Assembly: GCA_015056545.1 (NCBI GenBank)
Contig: SVGE01000003.1
Coordinates: 1 to 64,000 of the forward strand
DNA from: Clostridiales bacterium
GTDB taxonomy: Bacteria; Bacillota; Clostridia; TANB77; SIG350
Length of the DNA: 64,000 nt
Direction: 5' to 3'
Shown here: one piece after another, positions 50,650 through 53,773 of the stretch
How the letters are laid out: each line of letters opens with the position of its first letter
How positions within the stretch are numbered: position 1 is the first letter of the stretch
The notes under the pieces: model-generated
What the model was told of the DNA's origin: nothing
Seen by the model: only the letters and a program-made list of their open reading frames with translations
The model's database searches: none
Position numbers and translations under genes: made by a program

Positions 50650-50721
50650 ATAAAAAGAAAAGTACTTGCTATTATTTCTAATAACAAGTACTTTTACAGC
50701 AACAGTGATAGTTACACTTAT
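50650..50721 (-). ncRNA. candidate small RNA, copy 1
   Basis: A self-contained unit on the minus strand: promoter TTGAAA (50750-50755), 16-bp spacer, TATAAT (50728-50733), expected start near 50721. The body contains ACTATCACTGTTGC and ends with an intrinsic terminator with arms AAAAGTACTTG and CAAGTACTTTT (50695-50685 and 50668-50658), then CTTTTT. Size ~72 nt. No ORF. Near-identical copies are at 52395-52465 and 53595-53665. Lies after the prepilin-like gene. Confidence 0.6.
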
Positions 50722-50780
50722 GTTTATATTATAAACTCAAAATATATTTTTTCAACACTTTTCACAAATTTTTCACTTTA
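50658..50780 (-). repeat. ~125-bp dispersed repeat, copy 1
   Basis: The conserved block runs from the terminator stem to beyond the -35 box, including AAGTGAAAAATTTGTGAAAA upstream of it. Copies 2 (52402-52526) and 3 (53602-53725) share the same order and orientation. Confidence 0.85.
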
Positions 50781-50828
50781 ATATACATAGTAGAAATATG
50801 ATGTAAAAGCATTTTATTTTATACTTTA

Positions 50829-52106
50829 TTATTTTAATTGCCATGCATTATCTGGTGTCTTTCCTCCAGCTTTTTCATCTACTACTTGGATGCTAGAGGT
50901 TAGTGTTACTACCGGACGAAGGCCCTGCACATCTTGATACTCAACACCATTTGAATTGTATAATCCCCATGTATCTACATTGTTGTAGGTAATTCCAGTT
51001 GAACCTACAACTCGTAAGGCAAATTTAACGATGTTGTTTTCTAAGACAACACACGTCGAAGATAACCAGTAACCACTTCCTCTAAATATCAATTCTTTTT
51101 CTGTAACAGTGACACCGGTTAAACTTGATTTTTTAATATTATAATAATTTGGTGCATATTCTCCTAATTCTTTTCCACTTTCTGGTGTGTTTCTATTACT
51201 TATTGTAGTTACTCCTGTTGCTCCACTTACTTCTAACTGCTCTATCGTTTTTACTCCTGCTGGTATATTGTGTACCTCCCAATCATTTCCAATATATTGC
51301 CAGTTCGTTTCATCTTCTCCCCAGTTGCTACTTTCTTTTAATATTTCATTTACGTCTTCTATATTTAAGTTTCTTCCTCCATATACCTCACTGCATATTG
51401 CATCTAATGTTGCTGCTCCCTGTATAAAACCTTGTGCTCCATATATGTATATATTTTCTACTGGCTCTGCACTTACTAATGTTACTGTAGTACCATTATT
51501 CTTTAGCACTCTCCACTTTATTTCTTCGTTATATCCTATTACTTCTTCTCCTGAGTCATAATTCCAGTCGTCATCCCCATTATTTAATATCCAACTTGTC
51601 GCTTCTGCTCCTAGCTTTTCTGTTATATTATATGTCTTTCTTTCTCCTTCCGGTATACTATATGCTACATAATCTCCTACTTCTGCAATACTTGCTAATG
51701 TTATACCTTGATTATTACCTGCTCCTATCCCTAAGTCTGCTAACCATTTGCTATATGTTTCTTCATTTCTTATTCCTAATACTATCTCTCCATTACTTAT
51801 TGCTATTAAATCTTTATATTCTTCCTTAAACTCTGGGATTATTGCTTGTATTTCTGCTAAATCTGTTGCATTAAACTCAGTTCCTTCTCCATTACCTGTT
51901 GCTAATTCTATTTGTCTTTCTGCATTTTTTACTGCTAATATTTCTTGATATGTTCGTATATCACTTTTAAATACCGCTTCTTTTGTCTTTTCTATTATCC
52001 CTCCTTCCATAAACGTAACAATAACTGTTGCTGTTAATATTATTAGCACAATTATTGTTACTATTAGTGCAACTAAGCTTATACCTGATGTTCTTTTGTT
52101 TCTCAT
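50829..52106 (-). CDS. prepilin-type secreted protein with C-terminal DUF6273-like domain
   Basis: A 425-residue protein. A type IV prepilin-like N-terminus: short basic leader RNKRTSG, then I-S-L-V-A-L-I-V hydrophobic helix (residues ~9-30); the Glu at position +5 of mature pilins is missing. Residues ~130-425 are beta-rich with repeated aromatic/Gly motifs; the C-terminal GYWLSSTCVV and GLRPVVTL look like a DUF6273-type domain often found in clostridial surface proteins. Likely processed by a prepilin peptidase and assembled or released at the surface. RBS AAGGAGGAA. A C10-tract leader ORF lies 80 bp upstream. Confidence 0.78.
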   Translation of the reverse strand: MRNKRTSGISLVALIVTIIVLIILTATVIVTFMEGGIIEKTKEAVFKSDIRTYQEILAVKNAERQIELATGNGEGTEFNATDLAEIQAIIPEFKEEYKDLIAISNGEIVLGIRNEETYSKWLADLGIGAGNNQGITLASIAEVGDYVAYSIPEGERKTYNITEKLGAEATSWILNNGDDDWNYDSGEEVIGYNEEIKWRVLKNNGTTVTLVSAEPVENIYIYGAQGFIQGAATLDAICSEVYGGRNLNIEDVNEILKESSNWGEDETNWQYIGNDWEVHNIPAGVKTIEQLEVSGATGVTTISNRNTPESGKELGEYAPNYYNIKKSSLTGVTVTEKELIFRGSGYWLSSTCVVLENNIVKFALRVVGSTGITYNNVDTWGLYNSNGVEYQDVQGLRPVVTLTSSIQVVDEKAGGKTPDNAWQLK

Positions 52107-52151
52107 AAAAATTCCTCCTTTAATTTTTCCATTATTGGGTAATGGTTCCCT

Positions 52152-52177
52152 AGGTTCTTAAGCGAAAAAAAGAACCT
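52152..52177 (-). terminator. hairpin in the leader of the prepilin-like gene
   Basis: Arms AGGTTCTT (52152-52159) and AAGAACCT (52170-52177), followed in the minus direction by non-T-rich sequence, so a leader hairpin/attenuator more than a strong terminator. A second hairpin ATTACG / CGTAAT is at 52186-52203. Confidence 0.45.
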
Positions 52178-52186
52178 AAGACTACA

Positions 52187-52322
52187 TTACGTTTTTTCGT
52201 AATATATTCTTAAGTTCTCTATATTTTTTGGCATGTCAAATAAAGATGTTGCTATTCTATAAACATCCCCCCCCCCTAGTATTTAGCACTTTCTGACAGT
52301 TTTGCTTAGGTTTATTTGACAT
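52187..52322 (-). pseudogene. small leader ORF interrupted by a ten-C (G10 on the coding strand) tract
   Basis: On the minus strand an ATG at 52322, with AGAAGGTG upstream, starts MSNKPKQNCQKVLNTR, then runs into G10 (52276-52267) and stops in the present frame at TAG (52259-52257), 21 aa. With 9 or 12 Gs the frame would continue as GGDVYRIATSLFDMPKNIEN and on to a TAA at 52189-52187, 44 aa and clearly protein-like. A ten-G homopolymer in such AT-rich DNA is exceptional and is what slipped-strand phase variation uses. Function unknown. Confidence 0.5.
52267..52276. repeat. homopolymeric C10 tract
   Basis: Ten Cs in a row on the plus strand inside the small ORF described above, the only long G/C homopolymer noticed in the window. 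The count may itself be uncertain. Confidence 0.9.
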
Positions 52323-52394
52323 TTTTCACACCTTCTTTCTGTTTGTAATATACCATAGGTAATTTAACATTGCAAGTAGTTTTTTTTTATTTTT

Positions 52395-52465
52395 AAATAA
52401 AAAAAGCACTTGCTGTTATTTCTAATAACAAGTACTTTTACTGCAACAGTGATAGTTACACTTAT
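52395..52465 (-). ncRNA. candidate small RNA, copy 2
   Basis: Minus-strand promoter TTGCAA (52494-52499), 16-bp spacer, TATAAT (52472-52477). Same body (CTATCACTGTTGC) and terminator stem; here one arm reads CAAGTGC instead of CAAGTAC, which makes a G-U pair in the minus-strand RNA but would be an A-C mismatch on the other strand, supporting transcription from minus. Followed by a T-rich tail. Lies after the LysR gene. Confidence 0.6.
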
Positions 52466-52526
52466 GTTTATATTATAAATCCACAATATATTTTTGCAAT
52501 ACTTTTCACAAATTTTTCACTTTAAT
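52402..52526 (-). repeat. ~125-bp dispersed repeat, copy 2
   Basis: Same extent and orientation as copy 1 at 50658-50780. Confidence 0.85.
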
Positions 52527-52546
52527 TATTAATACTTTTTATTGTT

Positions 52547-53440
52547 CTAACTTATCATTCCTTCTTTTATAATATCTATCATTTTATAAATATCTTTTCT
52601 GTTTTTGTTGTTCTTATTAATCATAAGATATATTTTTCTTTTTGGTATCTCAAAATTAGTTTTTAGTTCAATAAATTCTCCATCTTCTAATTCTTTTTTA
52701 GCAAATTGTCTATTTACTATCCCAATACCTAAACCACTTTTTATTGCTTCTATTGTTAATCCAAATGAAGATATTTCATATTTTGGATTAAGCTTTATAT
52801 TATTTCTATTAAATAAATTATTTAATTCATTTGAAATACTTGTTTCCTTTTCAGGTAATATTAGTGGCATTTGATTTAAATCTTCTAACTTAATAATTTT
52901 GTTTTTGTCTATCTCTAATTTTTTCCCACATACTAATAGATATTCTATCTCTTTTAATTCTATATATTCTATTTGCTCTTCAAACTTTTTAGGTGATGTA
53001 GTAACTCCAATATCTATTATATTATTTAATATTTTATTACTTAATGGTTCATTCGAATTTCTTAATAATTTTATGTTATATTTTTCAAATTCTGTTTTTA
53101 TTTTTTCTAATACTGGTACTATTAAAGCCATTAATATACTATGCGAACCACCTATAGAAATTCTTTTTACTTGATTATCTTCATTACTTCCTACTTTAAT
53201 ATTTTCTAAACATTCCATTGAATATTTAATATTATTAAATAATTCTTCCCCTTCTTTTGTAAATTCAACTCCTTGTCTAGTTCTGTAAAAAAGCTTATAT
53301 CCTAATTCATCTTCTAATTTTCTTAAATGCTGTGTTACAGCAGGTTGCGATATATATAATTCTTTTGCTGCTCTTGTTATATTCTTATATAATCCAACTT
53401 GATAAAATATTTTATATAATTCAAAATTAATATTACTCAT
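52547..53440 (-). CDS. LysR family transcriptional regulator
   Basis: A 297-residue LysR-type regulator. HTH at residues ~18-40 (KNITRAAKELYISQPAVTQHLRKLE), then LFYRTRQGVEFTKEGEELF; the effector domain starts at RISIGGSHSILMALI (~90), with VTTSPKKFEEQIEYIELKE and SGLGIGIVNRQFAK typical of the second half. Metabolite sensed is unknown. The operator array upstream suggests autoregulation. Neighbours are the prepilin-like and SLH protein genes, so it may control surface proteins. A sRNA element sits after its stop. Confidence 0.93.
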   Translation of the reverse strand: MSNINFELYKIFYQVGLYKNITRAAKELYISQPAVTQHLRKLEDELGYKLFYRTRQGVEFTKEGEELFNNIKYSMECLENIKVGSNEDNQVKRISIGGSHSILMALIVPVLEKIKTEFEKYNIKLLRNSNEPLSNKILNNIIDIGVTTSPKKFEEQIEYIELKEIEYLLVCGKKLEIDKNKIIKLEDLNQMPLILPEKETSISNELNNLFNRNNIKLNPKYEISSFGLTIEAIKSGLGIGIVNRQFAKKELEDGEFIELKTNFEIPKRKIYLMINKNNKNRKDIYKMIDIIKEGMIS

Positions 53441-53461
53441 ATTTCTTCCCCCTACAAAAAT

Positions 53462-53547
53462 ATTTTAGCATGTTTTGCTTATATTTTCAATTATATTATA
53501 AGTATTACTTATATTATAAACTTAAATCTGATATAAGTTTTTCTTAT
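53462..53547 (-). promoter_or_regulatory. lysR promoter with three LysR-type operator sites
   Basis: Minus-strand promoter TTGAAA (53485-53490), 17-bp spacer, TAAAAT (53462-53467). Three sites of the form ATAAG-N5-CTTAT: 53468-53482 (imperfect, exactly in the -35/-10 spacer), 53498-53512 (perfect), 53533-53547 (perfect). Centres are 30 and 35 bp apart and each contains T-N11-A, the LysR recognition pattern. Suggests autorepression. Confidence 0.65.
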
Positions 53548-53594
53548 ATTAAAAATTATAATATATATACTAACTTACAATACTTTTTAAAACA

Positions 53595-53665
53595 ACAAAA
53601 GAAAAGTACTTGGTATTATTTCTAATATCAAGTACTTTTACAGCAACAGTTATTGTAACATTTCT
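53595..53665 (-). ncRNA. candidate small RNA, copy 3
   Basis: Minus-strand promoter TTGTCA (53695-53700), 17-bp spacer, TATTAT (53672-53677). The body differs from copies 1 and 2 in the middle (AATGTTACAATAACTG) but keeps CTGTTGCTGTAAAAGTACTTG and the terminator stem with arms at 53639-53629 and 53612-53602. Located after the SLH protein gene; no ORF. Confidence 0.55.
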
Positions 53666-53725
53666 GTTTATATAATAAATCAAAAAAAATGTTTTGACAA
53701 TAATTTTCACAAATTTTTCACTTAA
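53602..53725 (-). repeat. ~125-bp dispersed repeat, copy 3
   Basis: Same block as copies 1 and 2, more diverged in the central part; one extra base in the promoter spacer. Confidence 0.8.
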
Positions 53726-53773
53726 ATTATTAAAAAAAGGAAAGAAATAATTTTTTTCTTTCCTTTTTATTTA

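Follow-up and report, generated by a model that had tools for sequence, protein, structure and literature searches.

A cell with many variable surface proteins of one family faces the question of which to make. Three intergenic direct repeats lie near a prepilin-like gene in a 64,000-nucleotide (nt) stretch of the genome of a Clostridiales bacterium (GCA_015056545.1, contig SVGE01000003.1, positions 1 to 64,000), referred to below as the window. The three repeats, c1, c2 and c3, have two relatives elsewhere in the genome, C9 and C13, named after their contigs. It is likely that the five repeats encode coordinately controlled, trans-acting antisense small RNAs (sRNAs) which act on the constant segment of a variable pilin repertoire to repress it. 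These sRNAs would be ~70-80 nt long. A constant scaffold (a promoter of the sigma-70 type and a terminator hairpin, with a shared direct-repeat box in four of the five) would flank a short antisense body, and this body would pair with pilin mRNAs in the region of codons ~5-33, over ~25-45 nt.

The copies in the window are 131 nt long and share one orientation: 50652-50782 (c1), 52396-52526 (c2) and 53596-53726 (c3), as found by repeat search and alignment. Identity to c1 is 92% for c2 and 75% for c3. A preliminary description of the window had correctly recognised three same-orientation intergenic repeats. The copies, their promoter-like elements and their hairpins can be read directly from the sequence (Table 1). 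The minus-strand order is the same in every copy: an upstream box, a -35 and a -10 hexamer, a body with CTGTTGC, and a hairpin. The conserved upstream sequence of the preliminary description is GTGAAAAATTTGTGAAAA, identical in c1, c2 and c3; the body has the CTGTTGC reported there, and its length is ~30 nt instead of ~45 nt. Promoter spacings of 16, 16 and 17 bp agree with the 16-17 bp first given. These promoters are consensus matches, and in a region so rich in AT such matches by themselves are no more frequent than chance predicts (20 observed vs 23.1 expected from shuffles), so the promoter evidence consists in conservation in register.

The ~70-nt RNAs predicted from c1, c2 and c3 have folding z-scores of -4.9, -3.7 and -3.9, and none of 200 shuffles is equally stable for any of them; this stability comes mainly from the hairpin. 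The intrinsic terminators first proposed stand as stable folds in all three copies, and a terminator scan scored the copy 1 hairpin alone among the three. Changes in the stems give no clear strand evidence. Of the two in copy 2, one turns U-A into U-G and keeps pairing on the minus strand; the other is an A-C mismatch there and would be a G-U pair if the plus strand were transcribed. A minus-strand A-C mismatch is also present in copy 3. The earlier use of a copy 2 G-U pair as minus-strand evidence was selective, as one change favours each strand. In the c1-c3 RNAs, every frame closed by a stop has at most three codons, in keeping with the statement that they lack an open reading frame (ORF); a TTG frame, and in c2 a GTG frame as well, stays open to the RNA end, and C9 has one frame of 10 codons. 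An Rfam search of the window returns two tRNAs only at gathering score and no family for c1-c3. The best sub-threshold match on copy 2 is ncr1015 (23.7 bits vs 60 required).

Several intergenic copies with their own promoter and terminator are found, five by sequence, the promoters being consensus matches. The proposal of an sRNA family with its own promoters and terminators is supported at this level. The elements might instead be 5' leaders or attenuators of downstream genes (GreA/GreB-like, pilin, LysR, tmRNA), as a gene on the same strand lies downstream of each of c1, c2, c3 and C9. This is highly improbable. Those genes are unrelated to each other, and promoter-like sequences stand between hairpin and downstream gene for c1-c3 (50626-50598, 52375-52347 and 53490-53462) and, by eye, in the tmRNA case; as c1-c3 are each followed by a gene with its own promoter-like sequence, these copies are not simple leaders. 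Among the neighbours named earlier, LysR and SLH have Pfam support; the prepilin neighbour has no Pfam family and takes its name from its N-terminus.

Table 1. Positions in the window of the sRNA elements and of features of the predicted target gene.
Feature	Position	Strand	Basis
Prepilin-like surface protein gene, 425 aa, predicted target, member of ~30-copy family	50829..52106	-	N-terminus; no Pfam family
Upstream box GTGAAAAATTTGTGAAAA, copy 1 (plus strand TTTCAC-N5-TTTCAC)	50759..50776	-	pattern search
Upstream box, copy 2	52503..52520	-	pattern search
Upstream box, copy 3	53704..53721	-	pattern search
Promoter, copy 1, TTGAAA-16-TATAAT	50728..50755	-	hexamer consensus match
Promoter, copy 2, TTGCAA-16-TATAAT	52472..52499	-	hexamer consensus match
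Promoter, copy 3, TTGTCA-17-TATTAT	53672..53700	-	hexamer consensus match
Antisense body c1	50693..50722	-	inverted-repeat match and pairing energies
Antisense body c2, differs from c1 by one base	52437..52466	-	pairing energies
Antisense body c3	53637..53666	-	inverted-repeat match and pairing energies
Terminator hairpin, copy 1	50658..50695	-	inverted repeat, folding, terminator scan
Terminator hairpin, copy 2; one A-C mismatch, one new U-G	52402..52439	-	folding, alignment
Terminator hairpin, copy 3	53602..53639	-	inverted repeat, folding
Predicted pairing site of c1-c3 in window pilin, codons LTATVIVTFM	52008..52037	-	inverted repeat and pairing
Predicted pairing region of C9 in window pilin mRNA, codons ..SGISLVALIVT	52051..52090	-	pairing
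10-nt G tract, window pilin leader	52267..52276	-	sequence

The family of three first described has in fact five members. C9 and C13 were first found by BLAST with copy 1 (E 8.6e-9 and 1.9e-7), the C13 match spanning the hairpin part only. A covariance model, the check suggested in the preliminary description, scores c1-c3 at 131-133.5 bits, C9 (184512-184658) at 100.5 and C13 (77933-78080) at 81.8; it was built from these same five copies, so high scores are expected. The next match in the genome, the sixth of the model (35.1 bits; L072, contig C9 171502-171608), was rejected as a copy, as by eye it is the leader of a rimP-like gene. This leader has a likely attenuator of its own, a strong hairpin that ends the leader and immediately precedes the ribosome-binding site. 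C9 is located between the tmRNA gene and the pilin-like gene L104. All five copies lie outside the pilin genes found, so they are not cis-antisense RNAs encoded on the strand opposite their own target.

In 385 genomes sampled from the order, searched under stricter filters and with 8 candidates scored per genome, model matches at E <= 0.003 occur in the own genome only; the model search thus yields C9 and C13 there and no copy in the 384 others. The best match in two genomes of the same family is only E 0.198. BLAST against phages and plasmids gives no match, and no viral contigs were found. BLAST of copy 1 in 57 genomes gives matches in 16 including the own genome (15 of 56 relatives); several of the relatives' matches, inspected by eye, are AT-rich segments of likely promoters before unrelated genes. 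The upstream box is more specific. At one mismatch or fewer, GTGAAAAATTTGTGAAAA occurs at four places in the 1.45-Mb genome, all upstream of family copies (c1, c2, c3 and C9); the half-sites TTTCAC-N5-TTTCAC are intact in all four, and the single C9 mismatch falls in N5. At up to 3 mismatches the box is no commoner than its reversed control (20 vs 21 in all). The geometry is that of an OmpR-type response-regulator site, and the common box would let four copies respond to one signal. The box may also partly be an UP-element, because the relatives' matches include AT-rich promoter segments before unrelated genes.

The predicted targets form a large family. The genome has 38 matches to the prepilin protein of the window, fragments included, and 30 pilin loci (L075-L104) were fetched as the target set for pairing tests. 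All except the more divergent L104 (29/30) start with nearly identical GISLVAL[IV]VTIIVLIILTA[AT]VIVTF, with small variants. The C-terminal parts are diverse (by eye lectin-like, repeat-like and others), and the proteins have 284-657 aa, one being cut by the locus end. There are thus ~30 prepilin-like genes with near-identical N-termini in 1.45 Mb, and three matches above the T2SSE ATPase cut-off are encoded in the same genome. Prepilin families are common in the order: a match is present in 30 of 37 genomes (own included), with up to 42 matches per genome.

A target-blind inverted-repeat search matches the c3 and c1 bodies to one 30-nt site inside the prepilin gene, at 87% and 83%. The surface-gene role which had been called a guess is made specific by this antisense match to a prepilin-like N-terminal coding region, one such gene lying between copies 1 and 2. 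The c1-c3 sites cover the family codons LTAAVIVTFM, and that of C9 the codons ..SLVALIVT. Counting G-U pairs, c1, c2 and c3 pair with 27, 26 and 27 of the 30 nt in the window pilin, and the best values over the 30 pilins are 28/30, 27/30 and 27/30. Against 129 nt of each pilin start, C9 has a mean of -35.8 kcal/mol across the 30 pilins; C13 reaches -40.6 kcal/mol on L082 with a mean of -22.2, and fits mainly this pilin, which lies beside a diversity-generating retroelement (DGR). When the bodies are shuffled, the observed best energy is reached in 0/200 trials for each of the five sRNAs and the observed mean energy in 0/200 for four of them (C13, 5/200). At -25 kcal/mol or better, C9 pairs with all 30 pilins, c1 with 14, c2 with 15, c3 with 19 (c1-c3 jointly 25) and C13 with 4. 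Every pilin reaches this value with at least one sRNA (30/30), and none of 50 other ORF starts (at least 150 aa, from the six frames of the window) does so with any.

Specificity is also seen in pattern searches. Genome-wide, GCWRCAGTKATWGTWACRYTT at one mismatch or fewer occurs at 32 places, which are 29 pilins plus c1, c2 and c3; CTWGTNGCNYTARTNGTAACA at two mismatches or fewer occurs at 30, which are 29 pilins plus the C9 complement (0 mismatches). The reversed-pattern controls give 0. Among non-family targets within the window, the pilin ranks first for c1 and c3, and narrowly so for c2 (-24.7 vs -23.9) and C9 (-30.6 vs -28.5); for C13 it ranks eighth. A scan of tiles for antisense to pilins, run as a positive control, places C9, c1, c2 and c3 among the top 12 tiles and misses C13. 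The complementarity, like the copies, is a property of the letters, and being above chance and sequence-specific it is of the kind expected of a base-pairing sRNA family.

Complementarity of this kind could also be a relic. The elements would then be inverted, decayed 5' fragments of pilin genes beside promoters and hairpins, through repeat spread or as pseudogene remains, and the match would be historical, not functional. Translated in one frame, the C9 body's complement still gives ISVSLVALIVT, three copies lie within one 3-kb stretch around a pilin gene, and the other genomes searched hold no homologues. This explanation is nonetheless unlikely. Conservation is higher in box, promoter and hairpin than in the flanks; in c1-c3 the antisense part spans, by eye, the whole interval from the predicted +1 to the hairpin; and copies on three contigs match two different parts of the same N-terminus. 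Pairing of c3 is also kept better than random change would keep it: when c1 is given 5 random changes, its mean pairing is as good as that of c3 in 0.7% of 1000 trials, a rarity which gives moderate evidence that this pairing is kept by selection. The best energy of c3 is reached in 5.7% of 3000 such mutants.

The copies differ partly at synonymous positions of the pilins. The c2 body fits ACTGCT forms, c1 ATAGTT forms and c3 ATTGTA forms, and the best partner among the three, which differs by synonymous form, is c1 for 9 of the 30 pilins, c2 for 7 and c3 for 14. Synonymous matching taken alone is weak evidence: among 90 single mutants of c1, as many as 81 have a best pairing as good as that of c2.

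Under antisense repression, the five sRNAs together would reach all 30 family members examined, and pairing would lower pilin synthesis by RNase III cleavage of the long duplex, by a block of early translation, or both. The sRNAs probably turn down the whole prepilin-like family. The genome has an RNase III gene. We infer that the repeats are transcribed, that their RNAs repress pilins with the help of RNase III, and that four of them answer to a common regulator. Real sRNAs could also stabilise or activate pilin mRNAs, or serve mainly as sponges or have other targets. Some sRNAs are known to activate by masking nuclease sites in the coding region, which is where pairing lies here, and C13 fits few pilins well. 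This is quite unlikely, however, as cleavage is the simplest meaning of a long, nearly perfect duplex in a genome with RNase III, and each of the five sRNAs has pilins with which it pairs better than with all 50 other ORF starts tested.

Several observations weigh against family-wide antisense repression. The c1-c3 sites begin 66-84 nt after the assumed start codon, whereas most sRNAs known to repress act at the ribosome-binding site. Because the sites start so far inside the coding region, blocking of ribosome binding by c1-c3 is unlikely, and cleavage of the duplex by RNase III or a block of early elongation is likelier; the C9 and C13 sites are nearer the start codon. Hfq was not found in the genome (its family rings in 5/14 control genomes), although many Gram-positive sRNAs do not need it. 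C13 is the weakest member: it lacks the box, is found by neither pattern, and pairs at -25 kcal/mol or better with only 4/30 pilins. C9 and C13 failed a shuffle test at the c1-c3 site (48/500 and 153/500 shuffles as good); the target region was widened after this miss, and both passed on the wider region only. The patterns were written after the pilins and sRNAs had been seen, and test exclusivity, not discovery. Moreover, GCWRCAGTKATWGTWACRYTT gives 2 further places at 2 mismatches (one pilin and C2:33084) and 14 at 3. Some non-sRNA tiles score like c1-c3 (-36.5 in L082, -35.4 at window 33293), and genome BLAST of copy 1 gives the pilin site only E 0.029, ranked below two unrelated places. 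As the 384 other genomes of the order have no match, there is no cross-species covariation. Part of the antisense match could be descent from inverted pilin fragments. The two-mismatch place outside the listed pilins is at contig C2 33084-33104 (-).

The family resembles FopS, LhrC and the csRNAs as a multicopy sRNA family and is a member of none of them by the features tested (seed place, CU motif, CiaR box, Rfam). The pairing motif of LhrC is UCCC, and none of the five RNAs has it; nor is the CiaR box TTTAAG-N5-TTTAAG present. FopS of Bacteroides thetaiotaomicron comprises 14 paralogous sRNAs of ~65-70 nt, 9 of them intergenic, which repress members of a large SusC-like paralogous surface family via a shared 5' seed (PMC11697453). 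It is opposed by the protein RbpB and binds close to the start codon (PMC11697453), whereas here the antisense, ~25-45 nt long, falls within the coding region, with C9 and C13 nearer the translation start than c1-c3. Unlike FopS, the copies here fit different synonymous forms or segments, and they belong to a different phylum; this comparison is by description, not sequence homology. The csRNAs of the CiaRH regulon in Streptococcus have several genes per genome, a shared 6-5-6 direct repeat in the promoter, and a terminator (PMC3091779). The geometry is the same and the sequence differs, TTTAAG-N5-TTTAAG there vs TTTCAC-N5-TTTCAC in four of the five copies here, and csRNAs are complementary to Shine-Dalgarno or start-codon regions, not to the coding region (PMC3091779). 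LhrC of Listeria monocytogenes is a multicopy sRNA under one two-component system which represses the cell-wall-associated LapB; it pairs through CU-rich sites, whereas the RNAs here fit one paralogous family (PMC4132741). Two further systems join sRNAs to variable surface traits. RepG of Helicobacter pylori controls a surface trait by pairing with the variable G repeat in the leader of the mRNA concerned, whereas here the G tract is upstream and pairing is in the coding region (PMC8295292). Transcription of the pilE G4-associated sRNA of Neisseria gonorrhoeae is tied to a variable pilin; this sRNA permits recombination in cis, in contrast to the trans-encoded antisense proposed here (PMC3547852).

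The pilin family is, by its sequences, in part DGR-diversified. DGRs are defined by a template repeat (TR) and variable repeats (VRs) with adenine-directed change, together with a reverse transcriptase. One lies on contig C1 at ~74.3-77.7 kb (L228 4272-7715), with reverse transcriptase (RVT_1, E 1.1e-14), template repeat, a bAvd-like gene (E 5.5e-9; 36.9 bits, under the curated cut-off of 40) and an adjacent pilin with a VR; further VRs lie on other contigs. The TR is AAC/AAT-rich and ~0.9 kb beyond this pilin, L082. In the VRs of L078 (another contig) and L082, 26 and 27 of 46 TR adenines are changed and 0 of 105 other bases; in the remaining six of the eight VRs compared, 28-34 adenines and 11-57 other bases are changed, the 57 (in L081) reflecting a 3-nt gap. 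The comparison left out the divergent lectin-like ends of L075 (the window's own pilin), L085, L086 and L088. The target genes thus have a TR/VR pair differing at adenines and a reverse transcriptase; the likeness to DGRs concerns these genes, on contig C1, and not the sRNAs. A G tract of 7-11 nt also occurs ~170-345 nt before the start in 26 of the 27 pilins with 700 nt upstream, the exception being L104; three further pilins (<=258 nt upstream) are outside the 27. As the DGR rewrites some C-termini and most leaders carry G tracts, the constant N-terminal segment is left as the single address by which the variable repertoire could be controlled. One family in one genome would then have three layers: C-terminal rewriting by a DGR in some members, G tracts in leaders, and multicopy antisense sRNAs.

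A more specific proposal is that the five sRNAs form an RNA address code for hypervariable pilins, with c1-c3 addressing synonymous forms, C9 nearly all pilins and C13 the DGR-side pilin, so that chosen subsets are silenced. This is doubtful at present. If true, such a code, on a family also switched by G tracts and rewritten by the DGR, would lead to ordered or near-exclusive expression of surface variants. Protozoa silence families of variant surface proteins, and the code would be a bacterial RNA-based counterpart. If confirmed, antisense control of these pilins would show in compact form how a bacterium can silence a whole family of diversified surface proteins by RNA. It would also offer a template for similar finds, in which intergenic DNA is searched for short stretches antisense to the conserved N-terminus of an expanded family. 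Among titles and abstract starts in the literature, no report was found that links DGR targets to antisense sRNAs or describes antisense-sRNA control of a phase-variable pilin family of this kind.

The whole analysis rests on one genome carrying the sRNA family; relatives with prepilin families were scanned in part. No recognisable promoter-body-terminator unit antisense to pilins was found in parts of G017 (237 kb), G006 (310 kb), G002 (55 kb) and G001 (25 kb), of which 34, 38, 7 and 5 kb of intergenic sequence were tile-scanned against at most 5 pilin targets each; G001 and G002 were sampled too thinly to tell. By eye, the top match of G006, the one match inspected there, and the top matches of G001 are the antisense strand of short pilin genes missed by the mask.

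The leaders of the pilin genes have elements of their own. A simple pattern finds a terminator-like element in 10 of them. The window pilin leader, 52107-52345 (-), has no Rfam match at gathering score; by eye, it has an alternative pairing GGUUCUU/AAGAACC after the terminator-like element, and its fold z-score is -3.7. The pilin leader may be a phase-variable attenuator or an undescribed switch.

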